Part shown: positions 6,962 to 39,417 of the stretch, piece by piece
How positions within the stretch are numbered: the stretch's first letter is position 1
How the letters are laid out: every line of letters begins with the position of its first letter
Virus record (IMG/VR): IMGVR_UViG_3300018080_000255
Span: 1 to 47,923 of that record
Reading direction: 5' to 3' (one strand)
Length of the DNA: 47,923 nt
Source of the DNA: a virus
Translations under genes and position numbers: made by a program
The notes under the pieces: generated by a model
The model's input: the letters and a program-made list of their open reading frames with translations, nothing else
The model's database searches: none
What the model was told of the DNA's origin: nothing

Positions 6962-7003
6962 GGGCCCCGGGGTTCATGGGGATGGACAATCCGCCCGGGG
7001 CCC
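6962..7003 (-). terminator. Hairpin terminator after SSB-like gene
   Basis: GGGCCCCGGG and its complement are separated by about 22 nt and followed on the minus strand by TTCTTCGTTTC. It lies 15 bp beyond the stop of the acidic protein gene. Confidence 0.65.
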
Positions 7004-7017
7004 CCGTCCCCTTGGAA

Positions 7018-7857
7018 CTAGTCCGCCCCTTCAAGCTTGTCCCAAGCAACTTTGGTGAACTTCTTCCCGTCTTCGGACCGGACAACCGTGACAGTCTTTG
7101 CCTTCTTGTTGACCGTCAAGACTTCCACTTCTTTGGGCTTGCCGCGGGGGCTTGCCTTATACAAATAGACGTCTTCTTTTTCCGGTTCCCAATCTTCATC
7201 ATCGTCAACGGGTTCTTCTTCTTCTTCGTCCCCGTCTTCATCGTCTTCCGTTTCTTCTTCATCTTCTTCGGGGTCTTCGTCTTCGTCCCCTTCTTCTTCT
7301 TCGTCTTCGTCTTCTTCTTCTTCTTCTTCTTCTTCTTCTTCTTCATCGTCTTCCGGTTCTTCTTCGTCCCCTTCTTCGGGTTCAAAGTCTTCCGCAAGAC
7401 CTTGGATGAAAACAAAAGTGTTCCCGTCATCCGGGGCCCAAGTGTTGAAGAAGAAGAACGGGGCTTCTTCAACCAACCCTTCAATGATTGCGGGAAGGTC
7501 GTCAATGTCGGATTCTTCAACCGTATCCGCCCCCAACAACTTCAAGTCCGAAACAAGCCCTTCCAACTTGTCTTCAACGGTCTTTGTGTCCGTTGCTTTG
7601 ATGAAGTGTTGGGCGGTTGCTTTGAGTCCGAAGAAATCGTCCGGTTCTTGAACCGTTCCCGTTAGGAAGACATACGGATTTCCCTTCTTGTCTTCGTCAA
7701 TCTTGAACGCGGACAATTGGGCAACGCCCCGGACAATCCCGCCCGGAAGTTGGCTTCCCTTTGCCTTGGCTTCCGTTTCCCGGGCATTCTTCCATGACCG
7801 CCCCGCCCGCTTGTTCAACTTGGCCATAACGTTGGACTTCGTCTTCTTCTTTGCCAT
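7018..7857 (-). CDS. Putative single-stranded DNA-binding protein with long acidic tract
   Basis: 279 residues. The N-terminal part (about 35-165) has strands such as YVFLTGTVQEPDDFF and FVFIQGLA, and resembles the DUF669-type proteins often encoded beside Sak4-like recombinases. A run of about 60 nearly pure Glu/Asp residues follows (about 167-225). A C-terminal segment, VYLYKASPRGKPKEVEVLTV...KTVTVVRSEDGKKF, looks like a small beta barrel. An acidic tail is typical of SSBs, where it recruits partners, but here it is internal, which is odd. The gene directly follows the Sak4-like NTPase. The start at 7857 has TTGAAAGGG upstream. Confidence 0.6.
   Translation of the reverse strand: MAKKKTKSNVMAKLNKRAGRSWKNARETEAKAKGSQLPGGIVRGVAQLSAFKIDEDKKGNPYVFLTGTVQEPDDFFGLKATAQHFIKATDTKTVEDKLEGLVSDLKLLGADTVEESDIDDLPAIIEGLVEEAPFFFFNTWAPDDGNTFVFIQGLAEDFEPEEGDEEEPEDDEEEEEEEEEEEDEDEEEEGDEDEDPEEDEEETEDDEDGDEEEEEPVDDDEDWEPEKEDVYLYKASPRGKPKEVEVLTVNKKAKTVTVVRSEDGKKFTKVAWDKLEGAD
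7311..7343. repeat. (GAA)n microsatellite in acidic tract
   Basis: Eleven uninterrupted CTT units on the plus strand encode a poly-Glu run. Flanking CTT/CGT-rich sequence extends the low-complexity zone to roughly 7205-7375. Confidence 0.95.
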
Positions 7858-7938
7858 TGTTCAAAACCCTTTCAATGATTGTCCCCGGTTGTGTTCATCC
7901 TGCCCGGGGGGACGTCCGGACAAGTTTGTTTCAAAACG

Positions 7939-7952
7939 CTTGGGTTTATTAA
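7939..7952 (+). repeat. TTGGGTTTATT element, after NTPase gene
   Basis: The TAA stop of the NTPase gene lies inside the element on the minus strand (TAATAAACCCAAG). It leads into the 91-bp gap before the SSB-like gene. Confidence 0.7.
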
Positions 7953-8833
7953 CGCTTGCGGGAACCCGCTTTCTTGAACGCCTTTTCAAATTCCTTGAAC
8001 GCTTCTTCCGAAGTGTCACCCGCGTCAATCACGGGGGCAAGGGAAAACCAATTCTTTGCGTCAAAAGCGGGGGCCCAATCTGTATATAAAATCCGCCCTT
8101 CCCCTTCTTGCTTTGCTTTGGTCCGCGGTCCTTTCTTTTTGGACAAGTCCAATTCAACGAGATAATTATAAAAGAAAACCCCTTGGGCCCATCGGTGGGT
8201 TGTTGCCCAAGTTTCCGGGTCACAATAACAAACAAACCTATCATAATCCGGACCTTCCGGATTGTTGTAGGGTTTGGTCCGTGAATGACCAATCACAATG
8301 ACGTTGATTCCCGCGGCCCGGACGTCTTCCAACCCGTCAATCAACCGGGGCCAATCAACCTTGGCCGCTTGCTTCGGTCCCTTTTGGTAACTGTAGAAAC
8401 CTTCCGTTGACCAATCCCCGTCAAAGTGTTCTTCACAATGATGAATGAAGCAAAGCTTTTCAAAGCCCGTCAAAGAATCAATGATAAGGGTTTGGCAATG
8501 GTAGTTGGTCCCCTTGGCAACGGAACCGCAAAGGGACAACGCGTCTTCAAAACTGTCCGCTTGTTCAATGAAAGCGGGTTCCGGGACTAGGTTGAATTCC
8601 GTCAACGTCCGGATTCCTTCTTCTTGCGGGTCAATGATGAATCCGGGGTTTGGGAATTGGGCACAAAACGAAGTCTTCCCAACCCCGCTTGGACCGTAAA
8701 GAAGAAGTTTCAACGGGGACTTTCCAAGGAAGCCCCGCCCTTCGGAAATCTTCTTCTTCTTCGTTGGCCGCGGTGTCTTCTTCTTCGGACGGGGACGTTT
8801 CTTCTTTGACGTTTGACGTTGCGTTGTTGCCAT
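7949..8833 (-). CDS. RecA-like NTPase (Sak4/AAA_24 type)
   Basis: 294 residues. A Lys/Arg-rich N-terminus (1-35) precedes a P-loop GPSGVGKTS (47-55). Then come FIIDPQEEG, a Walker B strand TLIIDSLTG, and VIVIGHSRT. This matches the AAA_24/Sak4 group of short RecA-like ATPases, which pair with phage SSBs to promote annealing and strand exchange. The ATG at 8833 has GAAAGGG upstream. The frame is open to 8851, but an earlier start there would overlap the upstream gene. Neighbours on both sides (SSB-like protein, nuclease) fit a recombination module. Confidence 0.85.
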   Translation of the reverse strand: MATTQRQTSKKKRPRPKKKTPRPTKKKKISEGRGFLGKSPLKLLLYGPSGVGKTSFCAQFPNPGFIIDPQEEGIRTLTEFNLVPEPAFIEQADSFEDALSLCGSVAKGTNYHCQTLIIDSLTGFEKLCFIHHCEEHFDGDWSTEGFYSYQKGPKQAAKVDWPRLIDGLEDVRAAGINVIVIGHSRTKPYNNPEGPDYDRFVCYCDPETWATTHRWAQGVFFYNYLVELDLSKKKGPRTKAKQEGEGRILYTDWAPAFDAKNWFSLAPVIDAGDTSEEAFKEFEKAFKKAGSRKR

Positions 8834-9456: not shown

Positions 9457-10787
9457 TATTCCAGTTCCGGAAATAGGGTTTGAATTGTGGTCAAGCGGTC
9501 CTTGCGTCCGCCCGTCATAAAATCGAAGTAAGAACCGCGGAACCCGGACGCCAATGAATTGTAGACACCCCAAGGGAAACGCCAATGAAAGGGGTTTGTC
9601 CAAGGGTTGAACGGGTCTTCCATCCCTTCCCACCAATCCAACAACCCTTCAAGGATTGGGTTGAAACATTCCCTTTTGAACCGTTCAACGTCCGCTTTGT
9701 ATACACGGGACTTCCAACGCATGAAGGAACGTTCCGGGTCCTTGGCAACGTCCCCCGCAACGCGTTGGAAGAATTGGTCTTCCGTTTCCGCCCCCTTCCT
9801 TATCTTCTTCGTCTTGGCCGCGTTCCACACAAGACGCCCCTTGCGTTGCTTTTGGGCGTGTTGGTCCGCAAGGGGACGTCTTATGACGTTGTATAGAACC
9901 CCGTGAATTGGGAACTTGGCCAACGCTTCCGCTTGTTCCTTGGTCAATCCTTCGGGAACGTGGGACGGGTCCTTCTTGACTTGTTCTTGGGCGGTCAACA
10001 AAGAAATCAAATAGGTCATGACTTGCAAGTTTTCATGAACCGTCTTGGTCAAACCTTCTTCGTCAATCTTTCCCTTGGTTTTGTTTTCTTGAAGCCAAGC
10101 GGTCTTCCCAAAGTGGAAGAACCCGTCCCACTTCCCGCGAAGAAGAACAACGCGTCCGCTTGGCAACGTGTAAGGAACGCGGAACGAGATTTCCGCAAGA
10201 ATGGGCTTCTTCCCCTTCTCGGTCTTGTCTTTCTTCCAACGCTTCAAATAGATTGGCCAAAGAAGACAACCAAGCTTGAACCACTTGTCAACGCTTTCCG
10301 CCCGGGGATAGGTTGCCCGAAGCTTCCCGGCATAAGCGGACATAGCTTTGATTGGGTCCGTTCCGTTGAAGAATGCTTCTTCCGCTTCATGCCACATTGA
10401 CCCAAATTCAATGGCCGCGTTGAACCCTTCATCTTCAACAAGACCTTCAACCACTTTCAACCGGAAGCGTTCCCGGCATTCAAGGAAGTTGGACAGAAGG
10501 GAAAAGCTTATCCCGTCCCCTTCAATCCCGGGACCTTTCCAAAGGGGCTTGGGTTTATTGGTCTTGACCTTGACCGTTCCGTCTTGTGGCAACGTCCCGG
10601 GTCTTCCAACGGTCAACTTCTTCCCGCCGCAATTGCCGCAAGTCTTTGGCTTGGTCTTCTTTGGATGAAATCGAAGTTGACCACAACCGCCGCAACGATA
10701 TTCCCAAGACGTCTTGGGGTTGCAAATGACGGACACTTTGTCCGGGTCAAAGGGCGGGTCCCCTTTTCTTCTGATTGGTTTCGGCAT
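9456..10787 (-). CDS. PD-(D/E)XK nuclease, Cas4/RecB-like, with N-terminal zinc ribbon
   Basis: 443 residues. The N-terminus carries CxxC pairs (C32, C35, C50, C53), a zinc ribbon. The nuclease core then shows FSLLSNFLECRERF, a helix with H133 (SMWHEAEEA), RGKWDGFF (D221) and QENKTK (E234, K236). This is the RecB/Cas4-type order of catalytic residues in phage exonucleases that process DNA ends before annealing. The usual iron-sulfur cysteines of Cas4 are not evident. It lies upstream of the Sak4-like NTPase and SSB-like genes. Its first eight residues, MPKPIRRK, are shared with the small gene at 20264-20587. Confidence 0.8.
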   Translation of the reverse strand: MPKPIRRKGDPPFDPDKVSVICNPKTSWEYRCGGCGQLRFHPKKTKPKTCGNCGGKKLTVGRPGTLPQDGTVKVKTNKPKPLWKGPGIEGDGISFSLLSNFLECRERFRLKVVEGLVEDEGFNAAIEFGSMWHEAEEAFFNGTDPIKAMSAYAGKLRATYPRAESVDKWFKLGCLLWPIYLKRWKKDKTEKGKKPILAEISFRVPYTLPSGRVVLLRGKWDGFFHFGKTAWLQENKTKGKIDEEGLTKTVHENLQVMTYLISLLTAQEQVKKDPSHVPEGLTKEQAEALAKFPIHGVLYNVIRRPLADQHAQKQRKGRLVWNAAKTKKIRKGAETEDQFFQRVAGDVAKDPERSFMRWKSRVYKADVERFKRECFNPILEGLLDWWEGMEDPFNPWTNPFHWRFPWGVYNSLASGFRGSYFDFMTGGRKDRLTTIQTLFPELE

Positions 10788-20263: not shown

Positions 20264-20587
20264 TCAATTCTCGTTGTCTTCGTCCTTCATCCGGGCCAAG
20301 ATTGCTTCCCGTTCCGCGGTCAATTCCTTCTTCAACAAGTCAACGCAAGTGTCAAAGTCTTCGGAAGGGAAGTCCCGCGTTTTCCAATTGACTTCAATGT
20401 GGTCCCCGTTGGGATGGAAGAATGCAACCGTCCAAGACCCCACTTCCGCCAAGGGTTCCAACATGGGAAGAAGGAACGCTTGAAGTTCAAGCAAGTCCGC
20501 GTCCCTTGATTTCATCCGGGACCCTTTCCGGATTGGCTTGGGTTTATTAGGTTTTCTTTTCTTCTTTCTTCTGATTGGTTTCGGCAT
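20264..20587 (-). CDS. Small protein with basic N-terminus, 107 residues
   Basis: Begins MPKPIRRKKKRKPNKPKPIRK. The remainder is acidic, with two helices and a short strand pair (WTVAFFHPNGDHIEVNW). The first eight residues equal those of the nuclease at 9456-10787, and a 23-nt stretch around the two starts is identical. The ATG overlaps the TAA stop of the glycosyltransferase-methyltransferase gene (TAATG), so it belongs to the glycan transcript by position. Function unknown. Confidence 0.6.
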   Translation of the reverse strand: MPKPIRRKKKRKPNKPKPIRKGSRMKSRDADLLELQAFLLPMLEPLAEVGSWTVAFFHPNGDHIEVNWKTRDFPSEDFDTCVDLLKKELTAEREAILARMKDEDNEN

Positions 20588-21900
20588 TATGTCCCCGCAA
20601 ATTTGAATGACTGTTGATTGGGAACTTTGACAAACCAAGTCATCCCGTCCCCGGTTTCAATTGGCAAGTTGTTGGCTTCCGCAAACTTGTCAACCGCCGC
20701 TTTGACCCCAAACCCTTTCCCTTCCTTCGGGCTTCCGTAATCATGACCGCCAATCCATCCCCCGGGCTTGACCTTGCGGATGAACTTCAAGTCTTGATTG
20801 ACAAAGGGTTCCGAATGGTTCCCGTCAATGAAGACCAAGTCAACAGAACGGTTCTTCACTTGACGCAACGCCTTGGAACTTTCTTTCCGGATAAGGTCAA
20901 CGCGTTCCCCAAGCGGACCAAGAAGTTTCCGGGCTTGGTTGAAGATATTGGGCCAACGCCCGCAAGGAATCTTTCCCTTTGCGTCCCCCGTCTTTGTGTA
21001 TACAACAGAAGACGCCCAAGGGTCAACGCCCGTATATTCAAGGTCACGGTTGGCCGATAGAAGAACGCGTCCGTTCAACCCGCGGAAGACCCCTATTTCA
21101 ATCATCCGGGCGGGACCTTCGGGAAGACGGTTCAAGATTTCTTGGGAGTACCAAGGGACCGCGGGGAACAACCGGAAAGCTTTCTGGAAAAGAAAGGTCA
21201 TGAAGGTCTTTCCCGTCAACAGTTCTTCCCGCGTTGCGTCTTTGAACGCGTCCGGAATCACGTTGGTCAAATGATACAAACAAGCGTTGGGGTTGAAGCG
21301 TTGGGTTTCATGTTGGAACGGGTGGGCTTGAACTTGAAAGACCTTCCGGGCTTTGTTCCATTTGATCGGATTCAAACGCCAATGTTCAAAGCGGCGGATT
21401 GACCCCACCTTGTCCCGGTTCAATGACGTCAAGACGTCAAGACTTGTCCCCGTATACGGAACCGCCTTCCCCGCCTTCAAGCGTTCAAGTCCCCGCTTGC
21501 AACGGACCAAACCTTCTTTGATTGTGGGGCTTCCCTTCCGGGCCCCGAAGGGGCAACCAATAACCCGCGGGGCGTTGCCCGCGTGACCAACGCAAGCCAA
21601 GTCAAAAGTCTTGCAAGCTTCAACAAAGCGGGGGTCAATAGGGGCAACAAAGACGCAATCCGAATCAACCCAAATTCCCCCGAAGTTATAGACCAACCAC
21701 AACCGGACAAGGTCCGCCCTTCGGAACAACGGAAGCCCTTCCGTCAACTTCAAGACTTCCCTTCCGCCCTTCATCTTCGCAACTTCCTTGGGTCCCACAA
21801 CTTCAAAGTCATTGTGTAAACGCATAGTTTCAAAGCAAAGCTTTTGAAACGGGGAAGTCTTTGTCCCTTTCTTATTTTCCCAGTAAGTCCAAACCTTCAT
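20587..21900 (-). CDS. GT32-like glycosyltransferase fused to class I methyltransferase
   Basis: 437 residues. Residues 1-230 resemble the DXD sugar transferases of capsule and mannosyl synthesis: FRRADLVRLWLVYNFGGIWVDSD, with D79 and D81 as the metal site. Residues 255-430 form a SAM-dependent methyltransferase: MIEIGVFRG (266-274), YTGVDPW, and DLVFIDGNHSEPF (354-366), as in the Methyltransf_24 group often linked to sugar methylation. One chain may add a sugar and methylate it, capping a glycan. The ATG overlaps the stop of the GT25/sulfotransferase gene as ATGA. Acceptor unknown. Confidence 0.85.
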   Translation of the reverse strand: MKVWTYWENKKGTKTSPFQKLCFETMRLHNDFEVVGPKEVAKMKGGREVLKLTEGLPLFRRADLVRLWLVYNFGGIWVDSDCVFVAPIDPRFVEACKTFDLACVGHAGNAPRVIGCPFGARKGSPTIKEGLVRCKRGLERLKAGKAVPYTGTSLDVLTSLNRDKVGSIRRFEHWRLNPIKWNKARKVFQVQAHPFQHETQRFNPNACLYHLTNVIPDAFKDATREELLTGKTFMTFLFQKAFRLFPAVPWYSQEILNRLPEGPARMIEIGVFRGLNGRVLLSANRDLEYTGVDPWASSVVYTKTGDAKGKIPCGRWPNIFNQARKLLGPLGERVDLIRKESSKALRQVKNRSVDLVFIDGNHSEPFVNQDLKFIRKVKPGGWIGGHDYGSPKEGKGFGVKAAVDKFAEANNLPIETGDGMTWFVKVPNQQSFKFAGT

Positions 21901-23255
21901 CTTTTCCCCTTCCTATATTGCGGCAAGTCCGGTTTGACATAGGCAACCGCTTTGTCAACTTGTTCCTTGGTTGGTTTCAGTTTCAAGAACTTCTTCAACT
22001 TTGTGACCACAACCCGCGGGTGGGAAAGAAGGGTTTCAAAGTTGACCGTCAACACTTGCTTTGACGGAAGGGATTCAATCAATTCTTCTTTCCCTTCCCA
22101 CAACCAACGTTGATGGGCTTCAACAGTTTCATCGGAACACTTGGGGTCTTCTTTGACGTCCGCCCGATTGACCATTGACTTGATTGAATGGGCAAGGGGC
22201 CGCTTTATATGAACCACCCGCAATTGGTCCCCGCAAATATTCCGCAATTGGTCCCCGCAACGGCAAAGTTGGGGATATTTGATTGCGGCGGTTGTTCCCT
22301 TGAAGAAAGCTTCCCGCCGCTTCTCGTTGATGAACGCTTTCAACTTGGCCCAAAGTTGACCCTTGGGAATTGCCAACTTGGTTGTTGGGAAGGGGATTGC
22401 TTCTTGGCAGATTGCCATAAGCCCAACCGCTTCAAACCCGCAATTTTGGTCCGGGTCCTTTCCCCAATATCCAAGCAATTCATTCCCCAAGTGTAGACCT
22501 AAATGATATAGAACGCCCGCCATTGCGGAAGACCCGGACGCATGAAGACCAAGGACCGCAACCAACGGGGTTGACTTCGGGTCAAAGCTTTCCAGTTGTT
22601 CCGCGGGGGCCCAAAAGCGTTCCGGGGGCGTCCGTCCGGAAATGTTTGATTGACCTTCCGCTTGACCAACCAACCATTCCCAAGGGCAGTAGATACGGCG
22701 GGACCGTTGTTGATGGAGTCTTCCCAAGTGGTGGTCAATGTGTTGGGCTTTGTGCCAATCATTGCGGTTCAAATGTTTGTAGACGGTCCGCAACATTTCC
22801 GTTGACCGTATCCCAAAGCAATGCGTCCGGTTGACGTTGAACGGTTGAAAGACCGCTTTGTTGATTTTCTTTGGGGCTTGCTTGTCAATCATCAAATGTT
22901 GACCGCCCAAATATATCATCTCCCAATCTTCCGGAAGGAATTGGAAGAAGCGTTCCACTTTGGCCCGAAAATCTTTGATGAAGATTGCATCATCTTCAAG
23001 GAACAAGACGCTTTGGTGTCCTTGTTGCAACGCGTCTTCTAAGATTCGCAAGTGGGACCGATAGCAACCCCAAGCCCCGCCCCCGGCTTTCCACCAATTG
23101 GGATGTTTTACTTTCTTCCCGTCCATTGCGTCAAAGCGTTCCACTTTGCGGAAAGGCCAATCCCGCGGGACGCGGTCTTTGAAATCTTCCCAACGGTCCG
23201 GACGCCTTTTCAAGTTGACGCAATAAACCTTGTCAAATGTCCCCTTCAAATTCAT
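21897..23255 (-). CDS. GT25-like glycosyltransferase fused to sulfotransferase
   Basis: 452 residues. The N-terminal half matches LPS/collagen-type GT25 enzymes: VYCVNLKRRPDRW (10-22), GAWGCYRSH (60-68), and VLFLEDDAIF (83-92) with the acidic metal site. From about 229 a second domain begins, LVAVLGLHASGSSAMAGVLYHLG, a PAPS-binding loop, with VVHIKRPLAHSIKSM later as the 3'-phosphate strand. Fusion of a hexosyltransferase to a sulfotransferase would let one protein add and sulfate a sugar. A 24-bp tandem duplication falls in the second domain. It starts 15 bp after the Ser-rich tail gene stop, with GGAAAGGGG upstream. Confidence 0.85.
   Translation of the reverse strand: MNLKGTFDKVYCVNLKRRPDRWEDFKDRVPRDWPFRKVERFDAMDGKKVKHPNWWKAGGGAWGCYRSHLRILEDALQQGHQSVLFLEDDAIFIKDFRAKVERFFQFLPEDWEMIYLGGQHLMIDKQAPKKINKAVFQPFNVNRTHCFGIRSTEMLRTVYKHLNRNDWHKAQHIDHHLGRLHQQRSRRIYCPWEWLVGQAEGQSNISGRTPPERFWAPAEQLESFDPKSTPLVAVLGLHASGSSAMAGVLYHLGLHLGNELLGYWGKDPDQNCGFEAVGLMAICQEAIPFPTTKLAIPKGQLWAKLKAFINEKRREAFFKGTTAAIKYPQLCRCGDQLRNICGDQLRVVHIKRPLAHSIKSMVNRADVKEDPKCSDETVEAHQRWLWEGKEELIESLPSKQVLTVNFETLLSHPRVVVTKLKKFLKLKPTKEQVDKAVAYVKPDLPQYRKGKR
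22218..22260. repeat. 24-bp tandem duplication in sulfotransferase domain
   Basis: A 19-nt block (CCGCAATTGGTCCCCGCAA) occurs twice, 24 nt apart, in frame, giving the repeated residues CGDQLR-NI-CGDQLR. It precedes the conserved RVVHIKRP strand, so it lengthens a surface loop without breaking the reading frame. Confidence 0.9.
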
Positions 23256-23270
23256 TGTCCCCTTTCCTTT

Positions 23271-24614
23271 CTAACTTAGAACTAGAATTCCCGAACAACC
23301 GCCTTGGGGCGTATACTCCCCGGTTGGTGGCACGGGCCCCGTATCAAACCGATAGAACAACGTTGACCCGCCCCCAAGGATTGTTGATACAACCCAACGG
23401 TCCGGACCCGCGTTCCACCAAAGGACCCAACTTTCCGCGTTGGTATAATAAGGTTTTCCCGCGAAGTCCCCCGCTTCATTATATCCGCCGTTGGCGGTGT
23501 CACATGGGAAGCCCGCCCCCGTTGCTACATAATCAAAAGCGGATGAAGGGGAACCGGACGCGGATGAAAGCTTGTTAGATATTGAAGGGCTTCCGGACGC
23601 GGACGGACTTGTTGAAGGACTGCCCGAAGGTGAACCCGGGGCCGCGGAAGAATCCGGACCCGCGGAAGAATCCGGGGGTTGGCTTGAATCCGGGGCCGCG
23701 GAACTTGTGGGACCTTGACCGGAACTTGCGGGGGCTTGGCTTGAACCCGCCGCGGAAGAAACGGGGGCTTGACTGGACACCGCCGCGGACGCGGACGCGG
23801 AACCTTCTCCGGAAGAAGAAGAACTTGAAGAACTTGACCCGGAATCTTTGGACGAAGAACTTTGACAAGTACAACAAAAGGTCAAGTCAACTTCTTCAAC
23901 GGGTCCTTCCGTTATACAAATTTGATTCCCTTGAATTGACAAATACCCAAGTTGAACCTTCAACCCGCAACCGTCCGCTTCAATGCCCATCACAACTTCC
24001 GGTTGGACACAAGAAGACGAAGACACGGGGGCGGATGAAGACCCGAAGCTTGAAGATTGGTAAGACGAAGACCGGGACGAAGACGGGGCGGAACTTGAAG
24101 CGGCGGACGATGAAAAAGAACCGGACGAAGATGAACAAGGGAAGGAACATTCCTTCACAATGTAAAGGTCCCCCCAAATATCAGACACCGCAAACAAAAG
24201 GGGTTCTTCACAACCAAGGTCCGCGTGACTTCCGGACTTGCAAGACGTTGACGGTTGGATTGTTTCCGGGCAAAGATTGAAAACCCGAACGTTTACACGG
24301 TCCCCGTTGTCATCCAACCGGGGAATCAATTCCGTTGAATTGACGGTTGATTCCGGGCGGATTGAATGGTCTTCGTCAAGCTTCTTTTCCCGTTCATATA
24401 CACAACAGATTCCGGACCCAAGAAAGACCTTCCCGCCAACCCTACGGGCCCCGGGAATCACTTGCTTGGGTGACACAACATAAGCTTTCAAGAAGTTCCA
24501 AGGACGGTCCGGGAATTCAACCCCGGTTCCCTTGATAGGGTTGGACCGTCTTTCCCGGGCAAACTTCTTCAAGGTCCGGGCGTCTTCAAGGTCATTGAAT
24601 CCGTATATTGCCAT
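23271..24614 (-). CDS. Ser-rich tail protein (putative tail tip or fibre)
   Basis: 447 residues. A structured N-terminus (1-155) is followed by a Ser-rich linker (about 160-203), a Cys-containing module (about 204-250, with CCTC), a long Ser/Ala/Pro/Gly linker (about 251-365), and a C-terminal domain with Trp/Tyr/Gly residues (ESWVLWWNAGPDRWVVST; GEYTPQGGCSG). Similar small C-terminal domains and Ser-rich spacers occur in environmental phage tail proteins. The linkers are ideal O-glycosylation targets, and the next two genes are glycosyltransferases. ATG 24614 uses AAGGG from the preceding repeat element as its ribosome site. Confidence 0.65.
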   Translation of the reverse strand: MAIYGFNDLEDARTLKKFARERRSNPIKGTGVEFPDRPWNFLKAYVVSPKQVIPGARRVGGKVFLGSGICCVYEREKKLDEDHSIRPESTVNSTELIPRLDDNGDRVNVRVFNLCPETIQPSTSCKSGSHADLGCEEPLLFAVSDIWGDLYIVKECSFPCSSSSGSFSSSAASSSAPSSSRSSSYQSSSFGSSSAPVSSSSCVQPEVVMGIEADGCGLKVQLGYLSIQGNQICITEGPVEEVDLTFCCTCQSSSSKDSGSSSSSSSSSGEGSASASAAVSSQAPVSSAAGSSQAPASSGQGPTSSAAPDSSQPPDSSAGPDSSAAPGSPSGSPSTSPSASGSPSISNKLSSASGSPSSAFDYVATGAGFPCDTANGGYNEAGDFAGKPYYTNAESWVLWWNAGPDRWVVSTILGGGSTLFYRFDTGPVPPTGEYTPQGGCSGILVLS

Positions 24615-24623
24615 TTTGAAACC

Positions 24624-24637
24624 CTTGGGTTTATTAG
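24624..24637 (+). repeat. TTGGGTTTATT element between tail genes
   Basis: Contains the TAA stop of the gene at 24634 and, on the minus strand, the AAGGG that serves the next start. Part of the 24-bp block shared with 16768-16791. Confidence 0.75.
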
Positions 24638-25533
24638 AAGGGGCCCAAGTTCAAGTTGTTGAAATTAACCTTTGGGTATCTGTTGAATTCTTTGTATTGG
24701 GGGTCAACGCCCGTTGCCAATTTCTTTCCCGTTCCATTTTCCAAAAAGACTTCCGCGGGGTTGCCCGTCTTGTCCGTGTAGATTTCCAACTTGCCCGCGT
24801 CATTCTTGAACTTGTGTCCAACGTGAAGAACCCGGGCTTTCCAAGTGTCCACTTGTTGAACGCCCGCAATCTTCCGAATCTTGAATTTTATACGATAGGT
24901 CACGCGGACATATTTGACGCCTTCAATTGTTTCTTCGTCCGCTTGGGGTGGCATCATTAACGCGGAACCAACGGGGGCCCCATAGAACGCGGTTGAATTT
25001 GTATGGTTCCCATAATCAAGAATGATGTTGGGGTCAAAGGGATAGAATTCATAACGCTTGACTTCCAAGATTGGGACGGGGGTTTGCGTTGTCACAATCA
25101 AGGTTTCTTCCGCGTCCGTCCGGATTGGGTCTTCCGTGACAAGGTCTTTTTCCAAGACTTCTTCTTCGGATTCACCATACCAACGAATAATGGGTGTCTT
25201 GGCTTCCGGGGGTTGGTCTTGGTCTTCGTCAACGTTGGAATCAAATTGGCAAGGGACTTCCCAAAGGATTGCGGGAATTCCCGTGTTGGGATGAATTATC
25301 CGCGTTGCTTCCTTCGGGTTTTGTGAAATGCAAAACGCCCCGGACAGATTGAAGAACAAGGGGGGAATCCCCGGGGCCAAAACTATATCGTCTTCGGTCT
25401 GGGATATGTTGTCCGATAGAACATAGTAAGTTCTTCGGAACGTCTTTCTTCGGGCCCAAAGCTTGTCTTGTCTTTCAAGCGTTAGGTTTGAAGAATGACT
25501 TGCGTTCTTGATTCCAATGACTTTGGGGGCCAT
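24634..25533 (-). CDS. Tail-associated structural protein
   Basis: 299 residues, mainly beta-like, without a motif I can name. It lies directly after the tape measure gene, where distal tail or baseplate proteins are encoded in siphophages. Notable stretches are TYYVLSDNISQTEDDIVLAPG, an acidic centre (about 100-140), and strands around FYPFDPNIILDYGNH and VRVTYRIKFKIRK. The ATG is 2 bp beyond the tape measure stop with CGGAG 8 nt upstream. A distal-tail role is by position only. Confidence 0.6.
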   Translation of the reverse strand: MAPKVIGIKNASHSSNLTLERQDKLWARRKTFRRTYYVLSDNISQTEDDIVLAPGIPPLFFNLSGAFCISQNPKEATRIIHPNTGIPAILWEVPCQFDSNVDEDQDQPPEAKTPIIRWYGESEEEVLEKDLVTEDPIRTDAEETLIVTTQTPVPILEVKRYEFYPFDPNIILDYGNHTNSTAFYGAPVGSALMMPPQADEETIEGVKYVRVTYRIKFKIRKIAGVQQVDTWKARVLHVGHKFKNDAGKLEIYTDKTGNPAEVFLENGTGKKLATGVDPQYKEFNRYPKVNFNNLNLGPF

Positions 25534-25535
25534 AG

Positions 25536-27971
25536 TTATACTCCGCGGAAGTTTTCTTCTATGTGTTGCAAGACCACAAGTTGGTCTTCAAGTTTGACGT
25601 TGGTTTCTTCGTTGGCTTCAAGAATCTTTTGTTGTGTTCCTTCACGGAATTGTATTTCCGCAATCTTTTGGGCCGCGGCAACGGACCCCGCTTCCAACGC
25701 TTGGCTTGGGGTAATGTTCACCCCGGGAAGACCCGTTGTTGCGGGACCGCCCTTCTTTGCCATTTCTTCCCGTTCTTCTTTGACTTGCTTGTCCGTTTCT
25801 TCCAAAGCTTTTTCCGCTTCCGTTGCGGACCGCTTGGCTTTGATGTTTTCCAACATTCTTTTCAAGTGTTGCTTTTCCGTGTTGATTGCGTCTTGTCTGC
25901 CCTTCTGATTGGCCCCAACCCTATCATTCCACTTGGCAAGATTCTTCCCCGCGTCAACCGCCGCTTGGTCAATCTTGTCATCAAAGCCCGCCCCGGTTTG
26001 GTCAATCGTGTCTTCCCAAGTGTCATTCAATTTCCCAAGTGAATTCTTCAAGTCCGCAATTTGGGCGTCAAGGTTTTGGATTGCGGAAGTTGGAACGGGG
26101 CGTCCCGCTTCCTTTTGACCCATCAACGCTTGCCTTTCATCTTGCAAAGTCCGCAAGCGGTTCCGCAATATCTGTTGACGTTGTTGTTCCAAGTCATCCG
26201 CTTTGGCTTTTGTTTCGGAAACGTCCGTCCCAATTATGACGTCCATTGCTTCCCCCAAGATTCCCGCGTCTTCCGCAAGACGAAGAATTCCGGTTGCAAT
26301 GGACTTCTGAATTGAAAACCAAGTTTGAAGGACCGCCATTTTGGCCCCTTCCCAAGCTTCAATGAAGAAGGTTGCAAACCCTTCCCAAGCGGAAGCCAAC
26401 GTGTCAACCACTTGAAGCCAAGTTGTTGTGATTCCTTGGCCCAAGATTTCCCAAGCGGCTTGAAGGTCACCAACCGCAATTGCGTCAATGATACCGGAAA
26501 AAGTGTCCGTGACTGTTGAAGCAATGCCCCCCAACTTCTCTGAAAAGAAACCCGCAATCCCGTCCATAATTTCCCGGGCTTCATCGGAAAACTTATACAA
26601 CGCAACACCAACGCCCGTGATTGCCAAGACCACAAGACCAAAGGGGGAAATCAAAACAAGAAGAAGACCTTTCAAGATTGTCAACGCGGTTCCCAAAACA
26701 CCAACACCAATTGCCGCAAGTTTGATTGCCGCGGCAACCGCAACCAATCCAAGACCAAGACCGCCAATTGCCGCAACACTTCCCACAATCGCAACAACAA
26801 GCCCTTGATTCTTTTCAATCCATTCCGCAAACCCGTTCAACATATTGACAACAAACTTGCCCATACCTTGAAGGGGCCCGGACAACGCTTCACCAATGGC
26901 AATCTTGACGCCTTCAACGGCGGACATTAACTTCCGGAAGGACCCGCCAAGCCCACTGTCCATAATTTCCGCGGTCTTCTTTGCTTCCCCTTGGCTTTCC
27001 TTCTCCAACTTGTTCAACAGTTCCAACGCGTCAACGGCCCCCCTTGCGGCCCCGGTTGCTTTTCCAAATTGACGGACACCAAACAAGATTGACAGAAGGT
27101 CCCCGCGTTCCGCGGTCCCAAGGTCTTTTGTTATCTCCCCAATTTCTTTCATAAGGTCAAGGGGCTTCCGCAAGTCCCCTTCCGCGTTGCGGAACTTGAC
27201 CGCGGACTTGCCCATCTTTTCCAAGCCCTTGTTGAACTTGCCCGTGAATTCCCCTTTTGACATTCGGGCAAGGAACGATTGAAGGGCGGTTCCGGATTCA
27301 CTTGCGGAAATGTTCAAGTTGGTCATTGAAGCCAACGTTGCGACCGTTTCTTCAAGGGACATTCCGAAGTCCGCGGACAACGGCCCCGCCTTGGACATTC
27401 CGTCAAGCAATCCTTCAAGACTGAAATTGGAATTGTTGACCGCGGTTGTGAAGACGTCCGCAATTCTTTGGGCTTCACTGGCTTCCATTTGGAACGCCCG
27501 CATAGTTCCGGAAATCAAGTCCGCGGACATGACCGCGTCTTCTTCCCCGCCTTCACCCGCGGCCCGGGCCAATGCCAAAACATCGTCCGTCATGTCTTTG
27601 ATTGCTTTGCGGTCAAAACCCTTTTGGGCAAGCTTGGCTTGAAGGTCCCCAACTTGGACCGCCGTGAATGAAGTTGTCCGCCCTAGTTCCTTGGCTTGAC
27701 TTCGCAATTCTTCCATTGATTGGGCGGTTCCATCGGAACGGGCTTCAACCTTCTTCAACGCGTCATCAAAGTCCGCAAAGCTTTTGACCGCAAAGCCAAC
27801 GGGAATCAATGCCGCAATGGACTTGGTCAACATTTGTTGACCCATTGATTGCATACGGTTTGCAAAACCTTTCATCTTTGCGGAAATACGTTTCATGACC
27901 ATTGCCGTTTTGTCAACGGCGGAAATCACAATGAACGCGTCCCCCGCTTTGACGCCCGCTTTGCTTGGCAT
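25536..27971 (-). CDS. Tail tape measure protein (TP901 family)
   Basis: 811 residues. The N-terminal 330 residues have the TP901 tape measure core: helical, with FDDALKKVEARSDGTAQSMEELRSQAKELG and ADVFTTAVNNSNFSLEGLLDGM. A strongly hydrophobic region follows (about 385-465: VVAIVGSVAAIGGLGLGLVAVAA, LLLVLISPFGLVVLAITGVG). The C-terminal third is coiled-coil-like and charged. It sets tail length and is ejected into the host envelope. By the usual 0.15 nm per residue the tail would be about 120 nm. The start at ATG 27971 has GGTGA upstream and an inverted GTTTACAC element next to it. Confidence 0.93.
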   Translation of the reverse strand: MPSKAGVKAGDAFIVISAVDKTAMVMKRISAKMKGFANRMQSMGQQMLTKSIAALIPVGFAVKSFADFDDALKKVEARSDGTAQSMEELRSQAKELGRTTSFTAVQVGDLQAKLAQKGFDRKAIKDMTDDVLALARAAGEGGEEDAVMSADLISGTMRAFQMEASEAQRIADVFTTAVNNSNFSLEGLLDGMSKAGPLSADFGMSLEETVATLASMTNLNISASESGTALQSFLARMSKGEFTGKFNKGLEKMGKSAVKFRNAEGDLRKPLDLMKEIGEITKDLGTAERGDLLSILFGVRQFGKATGAARGAVDALELLNKLEKESQGEAKKTAEIMDSGLGGSFRKLMSAVEGVKIAIGEALSGPLQGMGKFVVNMLNGFAEWIEKNQGLVVAIVGSVAAIGGLGLGLVAVAAAIKLAAIGVGVLGTALTILKGLLLVLISPFGLVVLAITGVGVALYKFSDEAREIMDGIAGFFSEKLGGIASTVTDTFSGIIDAIAVGDLQAAWEILGQGITTTWLQVVDTLASAWEGFATFFIEAWEGAKMAVLQTWFSIQKSIATGILRLAEDAGILGEAMDVIIGTDVSETKAKADDLEQQRQQILRNRLRTLQDERQALMGQKEAGRPVPTSAIQNLDAQIADLKNSLGKLNDTWEDTIDQTGAGFDDKIDQAAVDAGKNLAKWNDRVGANQKGRQDAINTEKQHLKRMLENIKAKRSATEAEKALEETDKQVKEEREEMAKKGGPATTGLPGVNITPSQALEAGSVAAAQKIAEIQFREGTQQKILEANEETNVKLEDQLVVLQHIEENFRGV

Positions 27972-37056: not shown

Positions 37057-39417
37057 TTATTTGCCCGCGTTCTTGATTGCTCCCATTGGTTCATTTTCGG
37101 CAACGCCCCAATCGTGGTAGGAACGCCATTTCATGCCGAGGGTTTCAAAGTCCGCGTCCGTGCTTTCAATCACGGGGGTTGTGTTCCCGTTCAAGAAGCC
37201 CACAACAAAAGCGGCCAAGACCGCGGGGTTGGCGAACATATACCATTGGTCCCCGTCTTGGCCCGTGAAGGCGGTCTTGTCCATTTTCAAAACCGCCGTG
37301 TTGTTGACAACGGGCGAAACAATCGGGGTGAACTTGTTGACATGGGGATTGCGGGCAATCACCCTTTCCGTTGCGGACGCGTCATCCAACCAAGCAACGT
37401 TGGTTTCTTGGAACAAGTCCCGGGCGTTGACTTCGTCTTGGGTTCCAACCAAGATTCTGTCCGGGGAAACCAAGACGGGTTTGTCATCATGGACTTGGTC
37501 ACGGAAGGCGGTTTGACTTCCCGTCAACCCGTCAATGGTCAAGTCACTTCCGGCCCCCGTCAAAAGGTTGCCGTTGGCAAGGTCAAAGAACCCGGACGTT
37601 TCCGCGTTCAAGACAAGTTCCAAGACCGCAAATTCAATCGCCAACGCGGCCAAGCGGCCAAGGGCGGTTGGAATCTGTTGGAACGCGTCTAAGTCATCGT
37701 TGACCATATCCTTGCGGGTCAACGCAAGAATCATCCCGTAGGTGTCACCTTGGACCGTATACTTTTGGTCCGCGAATTCACCGTGTTTCAGTTCACCGGC
37801 TTTCCCAACTTGTTGGTATCCGCCCGTGACCGTCAACCGATAGGATGAATGGGGTTTGAAGTCCGTCAAGTTGCGTCGGCCCGTGATAAGATTCCAGACC
37901 GTTTCTTGGGCCGAATAGGAAGCAAGAAGGGTCTTGTTCGCAACATTCTCCAGAATGTTGGAAGCGGCCATTGTGGAGAAGCCCCCGGACGCTTTCAATT
38001 CGCGGTCCGCGTGAAGGAACGTCTTGATATAATCATCCGATTTCCGGGACCCGTGATAGGTCTTTCCCGCGGCTTGAATGTTCAAGTCCATGAGATACTG
38101 AAGACCAATGTTCCGGTATTGGCGGGCGTCCGCCGCTTCCAAGACTTCGGGCTTATACCAAGTTTCCAAACCGTATTCGTTGCCGGTTTGGTCTTTGGTC
38201 TTGGCCCGGATTGGAAGGTCCGGGTTGATGGACCGAAGAATTGCCACTTCCAACGCTTCCGCTTGAATGTCCGTGTTTTCCATCCGGACGCCTTTGAAGT
38301 TGGAGGGGGTGGGATAGCTTGCCCGGCGGCAAGCAAGTTCAAGGTCATCCGGGGACGAACCGTTGCGGATTGCGTTCTTCTTGGCGGACGCAAGTTTCAT
38401 TTCTTTCCCGTCCCAAGTGACAACGTCAACGTCATCCTTGAACTTGGCAAAGACAGACTTGATTCCGTCAACGCGGTCTTCTTCGTCCGCTTCCGCTTCC
38501 CGCTTGGCTTGCAAAGCAACGGCGGGGTCAACGGGGTCCGGTTTGGTTGCCGGTTGGTTGTTGTTCGGAAGCGGCGGGGGCGTCTTCTTCCCGGCTTCCA
38601 AAATCTTGTGGGCGTCATAATGGGCCCGAAGCTTTTTCTTTTGGTCTTCGGACAATGCGTCCGGGTCAAGACCCATAGCTTTGACAAATTCTTCAAACAT
38701 CGTCTTAATTCCTCCAATGGAAGTTGTGGAATGGTTGGCGGCAATCTTGGCGGAAGTCCGATTGTCCGCCCCAAGAACCGTGATAGTCAATTCCCGGATA
38801 ATAGACTTTTCGGCAACAATTAACGGGCCCCGCCAAGTCCGCCCGTTGACTTCAACGCTTTCACCTTCTTCAACAATGGAACCTTGAACAATCCCCGCCC
38901 CCAAGGACACTTGAAACGGGAAGCCCCGCTTTGCGTCTTCAACATAGGTTTGGGCGGATTCACTTGAAGAAGAAACAATCCCCGCCGCGGCAACCAAAGG
39001 TCCGTTGCGTTGTTTGCCGTTGACCTTTGCGGAACCGCCCGCGGGGATGATTGCTTGTTCTGTTGTGTGGCCAATACGCAACGTCGTGTCATGGTCTTGA
39101 ACAACGGGCGTTCTTCGTTGGTCAAACTTAGCCCCCGCCAAGTCTACAATGACCGGATAGATGAATCCCCGGACGTCCATTGGGCGTCCCGTATTGGCCG
39201 ATAGATAAAAAGACGGGGTCTTGCCTTCCCCGCCTTCCGGGTCCGCCTTGGCTTCAAAGAAGTCCACTTCCCCGTTGGCTTCAATGTTGAACGCAAAGGG
39301 GTCAAGGGCAAGTTCCGCGGACGGGTCAAGAACGGATTCAATGTCAATCAGTTCCCGGGAAGCTTTCAAGGGAAGTTCCCCAAGCGGACCCAAGTTCAAC
39401 GGTTTGCGGTTCTTCAT
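37057..39417 (-). CDS. Prohead protease fused to major capsid protein
   Basis: 786 residues. The N-terminal 220 hold a maturation protease: VVQDHDTTLRIGHT (H109) and PFQVSLGA (S171), the His and Ser of the HK97-type (S78/U35-like) enzymes. A charged, Pro-rich segment (about 235-330) should act as internal scaffold. The remaining 400 residues are the HK97-fold capsid subunit, with RNIGLQYLMDLNIQAAGKTYH, AFAVLEL-type helices and a C-terminal FETLGMKWRSYHDWG. Protease-scaffold-capsid in one chain is known but not common. The start (ATG 39417) has GAAGGGG and a TTTACAC element 23 nt upstream. Confidence 0.85.
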   Translation of the reverse strand: MKNRKPLNLGPLGELPLKASRELIDIESVLDPSAELALDPFAFNIEANGEVDFFEAKADPEGGEGKTPSFYLSANTGRPMDVRGFIYPVIVDLAGAKFDQRRTPVVQDHDTTLRIGHTTEQAIIPAGGSAKVNGKQRNGPLVAAAGIVSSSSESAQTYVEDAKRGFPFQVSLGAGIVQGSIVEEGESVEVNGRTWRGPLIVAEKSIIRELTITVLGADNRTSAKIAANHSTTSIGGIKTMFEEFVKAMGLDPDALSEDQKKKLRAHYDAHKILEAGKKTPPPLPNNNQPATKPDPVDPAVALQAKREAEADEEDRVDGIKSVFAKFKDDVDVVTWDGKEMKLASAKKNAIRNGSSPDDLELACRRASYPTPSNFKGVRMENTDIQAEALEVAILRSINPDLPIRAKTKDQTGNEYGLETWYKPEVLEAADARQYRNIGLQYLMDLNIQAAGKTYHGSRKSDDYIKTFLHADRELKASGGFSTMAASNILENVANKTLLASYSAQETVWNLITGRRNLTDFKPHSSYRLTVTGGYQQVGKAGELKHGEFADQKYTVQGDTYGMILALTRKDMVNDDLDAFQQIPTALGRLAALAIEFAVLELVLNAETSGFFDLANGNLLTGAGSDLTIDGLTGSQTAFRDQVHDDKPVLVSPDRILVGTQDEVNARDLFQETNVAWLDDASATERVIARNPHVNKFTPIVSPVVNNTAVLKMDKTAFTGQDGDQWYMFANPAVLAAFVVGFLNGNTTPVIESTDADFETLGMKWRSYHDWGVAENEPMGAIKNAGK

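Follow-up and report, generated by a model that had tools for sequence, protein, structure and literature searches.

Our analysis showed that the viral DNA investigated here, a stretch of 47,923 nucleotides (IMG/VR record IMGVR_UViG_3300018080_000255, positions 1 to 47,923; hereafter the window), encodes a genuine two-domain protein in which a GT25 glycosyltransferase domain is joined to a sulfotransferase-like domain, and that this protein belongs to a widespread family. The best explanation, which we regard as evenly poised between right and wrong, is that the fusion of Planctomycetota tailed phages and prophages builds a sugar, probably a sulfated one, on a serine-rich virion protein. The gene and its start signal are as follows.

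21897..23255, minus strand: GT25–sulfotransferase-fold fusion, 452 aa (from the ORF, Pfam, relatives and fold)
23259..23270, minus strand: ribosome binding site aaaggaaagggg before the fusion ATG (read from the sequence)

The preliminary description of this DNA had placed one open frame at 21897–23255. The coordinates and the 452-aa length are right, but the strand is minus: read from 23255 to 21897, the frame is uninterrupted from ATG to TGA, and stops interrupt the plus strand across the same interval. The ATG is preceded by aaaggaaagggg, rated a good ribosome binding site, which comes immediately behind the stop codon of the gene upstream. At the other end, the TGA shares the sequence ATGA with the start codon of the downstream gene. 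GC content by codon position is alike in the GT25 half and the sulfotransferase half.

A sequencing frameshift joining two genes had been named as something that would undo the fusion. Nothing was found for such an assembly or frameshift artefact, to which we attach virtually no probability, and split or broken copies exist in two other genomes, with the GT25 and sulfotransferase parts in separate frames (L205, ORFs starting at 10105 and 10946; L186, ORFs starting at 2351 and 2891). Against it, a single ORF encodes both domains in 64 viral contigs and at 52 genome-contig loci; these independent contigs rule the artefact out, and dN/dS is low on either side of the junction. Full-length relatives with 67–73% identity and the same surrounding gene order were found in three viral contigs. 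A profile-guided scan of viral contigs gave 67 loci, 36 fused and 31 with GT25 only. When the sulfotransferase half alone was used for the scan, 64 contigs matched and all 64 had GT25 in the same ORF; 59 of these were newly fetched, all of them fused, and five had been recognised as fusions before.

The fusion was also present in bacterial genomes, where the preliminary description had suggested looking for it. The genome-contig scan, which confirms its hits against the fusion L099 and thus favours the L099 subfamily, found 77 loci. Of these, 52 were fused: 48 in Planctomycetota, three in Pseudomonadota MAG contigs and one in another bacterium. The remaining 25 had no sulfotransferase in the GT25 ORF (17 Planctomycetota, some of them cut by contig ends, seven Verrucomicrobiota and one other). 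In an earlier genome-contig scan 59 stretches matched and none was confirmed, a failure probably due to peptide patterns drawn from very close relatives. The fusion, which had been thought new in phages, is therefore not confined to the phage of the window but occurs widely among uncultivated phages and in the genomes of planctomycetes. The phage probably infects planctomycete bacteria; this host assignment comes from the gene family, given the 48 planctomycete loci among the 52, and not from other genes of the window. The 299-aa neighbour described below gave one weak match in 294 Planctomycetota genomes.

The distribution of the fusion is sporadic. Only four of the 294 sampled Planctomycetota genomes matched the sulfotransferase profile at E 1e-10: two were already known carriers, one had the gene cut by a contig end, and one gave a weak match without GT25. 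In the class of genome G003, two of 98 genomes matched this profile, one of them G003. Four copies of the fusion are present in Rhodopirellula rubra. G206 was considered as a standalone sulfotransferase and set aside as uninformative, as its contig ends inside the gene. The frame in G064 had a weaker sulfotransferase match (E 1.7e-12) and no GT25 match, which indicates that distant sulfotransferases without GT25 do occur outside viral contigs.

Among 50,697 records of isolated phages, no match covered 80% of the window protein or of the Arg-type L099 fusion, and a search for isolated-phage relatives found no DNA-level match to positions 22000–27900. Plasmid matches were to the GT25 part only (two records). 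NCBIfam had no family for six proteins. The best 50 matches listed from the viral structure library had mostly GT25 or other glycosyltransferase names and no sulfotransferase name. Other architectures were also seen. An 882-aa ORF in a Phycisphaera MAG (L188:8999-11647) contains Capsule_synth, GT25 and sulfotransferase domains. GT25 proteins of Schlesneria and related planctomycetes (L197–L204) are about 570–680 aa long with a long C-terminal part, for which no Pfam match was found in the two that were scanned (L199 and L202).

The dN/dS values of seven pairs, which are rough since some dS exceed 1, were 0.055–0.192 for the GT half and 0.085–0.213 for the ST half. Judged by these substitution rates, both halves are under purifying selection. 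The distances of the two halves were correlated (r 0.78; none of 1000 permutations was as high), as expected if the halves travel together.

The features of the N-terminal half are:

22611..23255, minus strand: GT25 domain, about residues 1–215 (Pfam, COLGALT1 fold match, standalone homologues)
22989..22997, minus strand: E87-D88-D89, DXD-type motif of the GT25 domain (64 of 64 non-redundant fusions)

The half is a glycosyltransferase domain of the GT25 family, and its acidic motif is intact. The sequence FLEDDA is present exactly at residues 85–90, and the DXD-type transferase proposed from it was borne out by Pfam, motif and fold. Pfam GT25 (PF01755) matched the window protein above its cut-off (E 1.4e-10, 41.9 bits against a cut-off of 24) and matched all 23 members of the 23-sequence alignment with E up to 0.01. 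COLGALT1 aligned with model residues 2–208 (Z 19.8, rmsd 3.0, 200 aligned; GT-A fold), and the COLGALT1-like fold region is given as residues 2–212 of the fusion. Standalone GT25 homologues of 206–212 aa exist, which shows the N-terminal half to be complete in itself. Its predicted activity is hexose transfer from a UDP-sugar.

The features of the C-terminal half are:

21897..22589, minus strand: sulfotransferase-fold domain, residues 223–452 (fold matches, PDB profile search)
22524..22550, minus strand: 5′-phosphosulfate loop GLHASGSSA, residues 236–244, with Ala at 239 (sequence, alignment)
22431..22433, minus strand: E275, candidate catalytic base (64 of 64 fusions; role by likeness to the TPST/NST/HS3ST type)
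22164..22202, minus strand: 3′-phosphate-binding motif R352...S360...R364 (R352 and S360 in 63 of 64 fusions, R364 in 61 of 64)

The two Pfam sulfotransferase families scored just below their cut-offs for the window protein (Sulfotransfer_1, PF00685, E 1.8e-4, 21.5 against 22 bits; Sulfotransfer_3, PF13469, E 6e-4, 20.6 against 27 bits), and the PF13469 cut-off was passed by the relatives L187 (27.3) and L188 (29.5). The AlphaFold2 model was built from 23 sequences (pLDDT 91.1, pTM 0.81) and replaced a first, poor model from four sequences only (pLDDT 48.7). In this model, residues 224–448 matched TPST1 (Z 15.5, rmsd 3.9, 192 aligned), and residues 223–449 also matched Stf1 (Z 14.7), the sulfotransferase domain of a Synechococcus olefin synthase (14.4) and NDST1 (12.2). 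Adenylate kinases reached Z 12 too, as is expected of P-loop folds, and the sulfotransferases scored about 3 higher. A search of PDB sequences with a profile of the C-terminal half gave 17 matches, to sulfotransferases only, the best being CurM (E 2.2e-4); 2zq5 and 4gox were among these matches, and both are named sulfotransferases in the structure comparison.

Could the C-terminal half sulfate the protein itself, on Tyr or Ser as TPST does, so that the two halves act on separate sites? TPST1 and TPST2 rank near the top of the fold matches for residues 223–449, but the TPST fold does not tell the acceptor, and heparan sulfotransferases match too (Z about 12). Tyr sulfation is also unlikely because the S/T-rich stretches of the neighbouring proteins hold few Tyr (three of 223 residues in the window; 0–12 per protein in the 16 proteins counted). 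We regard protein sulfation as very improbable.

For residue conservation, 147 fused ORFs, many of them repeat fetches of one contig, were reduced to 64 at 90% identity; in an earlier residue alignment three partial rows out of 31 had been left out. E87, D88, D89, G241 and E275 were invariant in the 64 non-redundant fusions, and K326, R352 and S360 were each kept in 63. The PAPS-binding loop GLHASGSSA, proposed at residues 236–244, is present exactly there and is Gly/Ser-rich, but its basic residue is missing. Position 239 was Arg in 45 fusions, Ser in 17, Glu in one and Ala in one, the window protein alone. The non-Arg state arose by at least three changes on the tree and marks a supported clade of 15 rows that includes the window (SH-aLRT 95).

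A passage of PMC11625862 defines sulfotransferases by a Lys or Arg in the loop together with a Ser of the helix; it also gives a Glu base for NST and HS3ST and likens TPSTs to them. The window protein has no basic residue in the loop (Ala 239) by this measure, and the conserved Ser and Arg of the 3′-phosphate-binding helix are present (S360 and R352). By strict membership, the window protein thus falls short in the Pfam cut-off and the basic residue of the loop; the fold and the other residues stand. Absence of the active-site residues had been listed as an outcome that would tell against the enzyme, and the result is divided: Ala stands at 239, whereas E275, K326, R352 and S360 are present.

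In the clade of the window, the sulfotransferase-like half may have lost sulfotransfer and serve as a binding or structural module for GT25, so that only a sugar is added. We hold this unlikely, though deserving of serious attention. The replacement of the loop Arg throughout a supported clade and the Pfam scores just below both cut-offs speak for it. However, E275, K326, R352 and S360 are kept in nearly all fusions, the non-Arg clade included, and the half is still constrained in that clade (dN/dS 0.21 for the window and L001, 0.15 for L011 and L078). Purifying selection on both halves extends to that clade. We therefore take the C-terminal half to be sulfotransferase-like, probably with that predicted activity. 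The activity is plausible in the window half since those four residues remain, and the sulfation step is the weakest link since the loop Arg is replaced in this clade (by Ser, here by Ala). The bifunctional add-and-sulfate enzyme proposed earlier thus holds in that both domains are recognised by sequence, fold and conservation, but not in the loop Arg, which is absent in the window; we consider such activity likely in the family at large but are less sure of it in the window member.

The window is a tailed-phage genome, with terminase, portal, head protein and tape measure present. A 786-aa protein at 37057–39417 (minus strand) matches both the head maturation protease and the "major head and protease protein" families and looks like a protease–capsid fusion. 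Base composition is strongly skewed locally at positions 7001–8000 (AT skew −0.335, GC skew −0.203). The neighbours of the fusion, in their minus-strand order with the fusion between the last two, are:

25536..27971, minus strand: tape measure protein, 811 aa (phrog_28, E 1.2e-79)
24634..25533, minus strand: 299-aa tail-module protein, conserved, no family match (comparison with relatives)
23271..24614, minus strand: serine-rich protein, 447 aa, candidate acceptor (composition; N-terminal part conserved)
20587..21900, minus strand: GT32-like (DXD) domain plus Methyltransf_24, 437 aa (ATGA overlap with the fusion)

The serine-rich protein has 223 residues in S/T-rich sequence windows, 78 of them Ser. 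The downstream protein matched Methyltransf_24 (E 3.7e-17) and, just below the cut-off, Gly_transf_sug (E 2e-4). This gene order, including the GT32-like/Methyltransf_24 fusion, is kept in five relatives (L007–L011). Loci of the Rhodopirellula type have a tape measure (E 3e-80 in R. rubra L150), a 263-aa protein, an S/T-rich protein of 700–980 aa whose S+T fraction reaches 0.92 over 60 residues, often an ORF of about 190 aa, and the fusion. In L080, which is related by the 299-aa protein, the order of tape measure, 299-aa protein and serine-rich protein is kept and the slot of the fusion holds a GT2 enzyme whose C-terminus shows weak likeness to a methyltransferase. In L044, Methyltransf_24 is joined to GT34. 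A protein with a lectin-like Laminin_G_3 domain occupies the serine-rich slot in two loci (L020:3690-5996 and L032:2273-5725), which would fit an adhesin-type tail protein.

S/T-rich ORFs made up 13 of 72 ORFs within three places upstream of the GT25 gene and none of 157 elsewhere (p 1.3e-7), counted on one representative for each of 24 GT25 clusters with an arbitrary cut-off of 0.45. A serine-rich neighbour specific to fused GT25 was considered and rejected: it was found in nine of 22 fused-only and four of 12 unfused-only clusters (Fisher p 0.73), a comparison that leaves out two mixed clusters, loci with less than 3.5 kb of upstream sequence and ORFs truncated at a contig end. L015, L020 and others have the fusion without a serine-rich neighbour, and in L039 this neighbour is downstream of the fusion.

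In the preferred reading, the GT25 half would transfer a hexose, either directly onto a protein or onto a sugar that the protein already bears, and the sulfotransferase half would sulfate that sugar with PAPS, which would be supplied by the host. The GT32-methyltransferase, the next protein, would add a methylated sugar. The acceptor would be the serine-rich tail-region protein encoded just upstream, and the phage tail would thereby acquire a charged coat of O-glycans. We infer this acceptor from genome context, in which its position is strong and not specific to the fusion. The short glycan of the preliminary description was guesswork; the gene surroundings favour glycosylation of this serine-rich protein. 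Alternatively, the target of the enzyme may be the surface of the host (its capsule, an LPS-like glycan or the S-layer) and not the virion; one purpose could be the prevention of reinfection. Pfam names GT25 for LPS biosynthesis and the homologue L188 has a capsule synthesis domain in the same ORF, but in the window as in R. rubra L150 the gene belongs to the tail module and follows the tape measure, a position at which late expression is expected, and S/T-rich genes are positioned just upstream. Modification of the host surface seems to us improbable.

PMC5088730 reports a methylated O-glycan on a planctomycete S-layer protein, which would fit, as a hypothesis, a phage glycan that mimics the host. 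A more specific form of the preferred reading, which we put forward tentatively and rather doubt, is that the serine-rich tail protein bears a coat of mucin-like O-glycans, sulfated and methylated, that mimics methylated O-glycans of the host surface. Its fused "add-and-cap" enzymes, encoded behind that protein, would be, with the same doubt over the whole, the GT25–sulfotransferase and the GT32-methyltransferase, with GT2 and GT34 carrying methyltransferase domains in relatives.

Both halves are of known kinds. No precedent was found in the literature searched, with subscription papers and preprints outside the search, for a GT25–sulfotransferase fusion, its spread in planctomycete phages or fused glycosyltransferase-tailoring enzymes behind serine-rich tail genes. 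To our knowledge, few systems of virion glycosylation in phages have been described and planctomycete phages have hardly been studied. If true, a conserved GT-sulfotransferase fusion encoded next to a serine-rich protein of the tail region would give bacteria and their viruses a ready-made system for making sulfated glycoproteins. The claim can be tested with Rhodopirellula and Rubripirellula strains available in culture. The natural occurrence of Arg, Ser or Ala at a single position of the loop also offers a direct test of how far a sulfotransferase depends on that residue.

Virion glycans of mycobacteriophages have been described on capsid and tail tube subunits (Freeman 2023, as cited in PMC12619734). 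Phage glycosyltransferases are involved there, as proposed for the window; the mycobacteriophage passage in PMC12619734 mentions no sulfotransferase fusion or serine-rich acceptor. Known GT25 proteins (COLGALT1/GLT25D1, mimivirus R655, bacterial LPS GT25 and phage PHROG 2835/854) share the fold, the EDD motif and the profile with the window protein, which differs from them in the sulfotransferase-fold domain fused on. PAPS-dependent sulfotransferases (TPST1/2, mycobacterial Stf1, CurM, StaL and NDST1) share with residues 223–449 the fold, the Gly/Ser-rich loop, the Glu, the Arg and the Ser; unlike them, the window protein is fused to GT25, has Ala in place of the loop Arg and scores just below the Pfam cut-offs. 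NDST (N-deacetylase/N-sulfotransferase) likewise combines a sugar-modifying domain and a sulfotransferase domain in one polypeptide, but its partner domain is a deacetylase, not a glycosyltransferase, and it acts in animal heparan sulfate.
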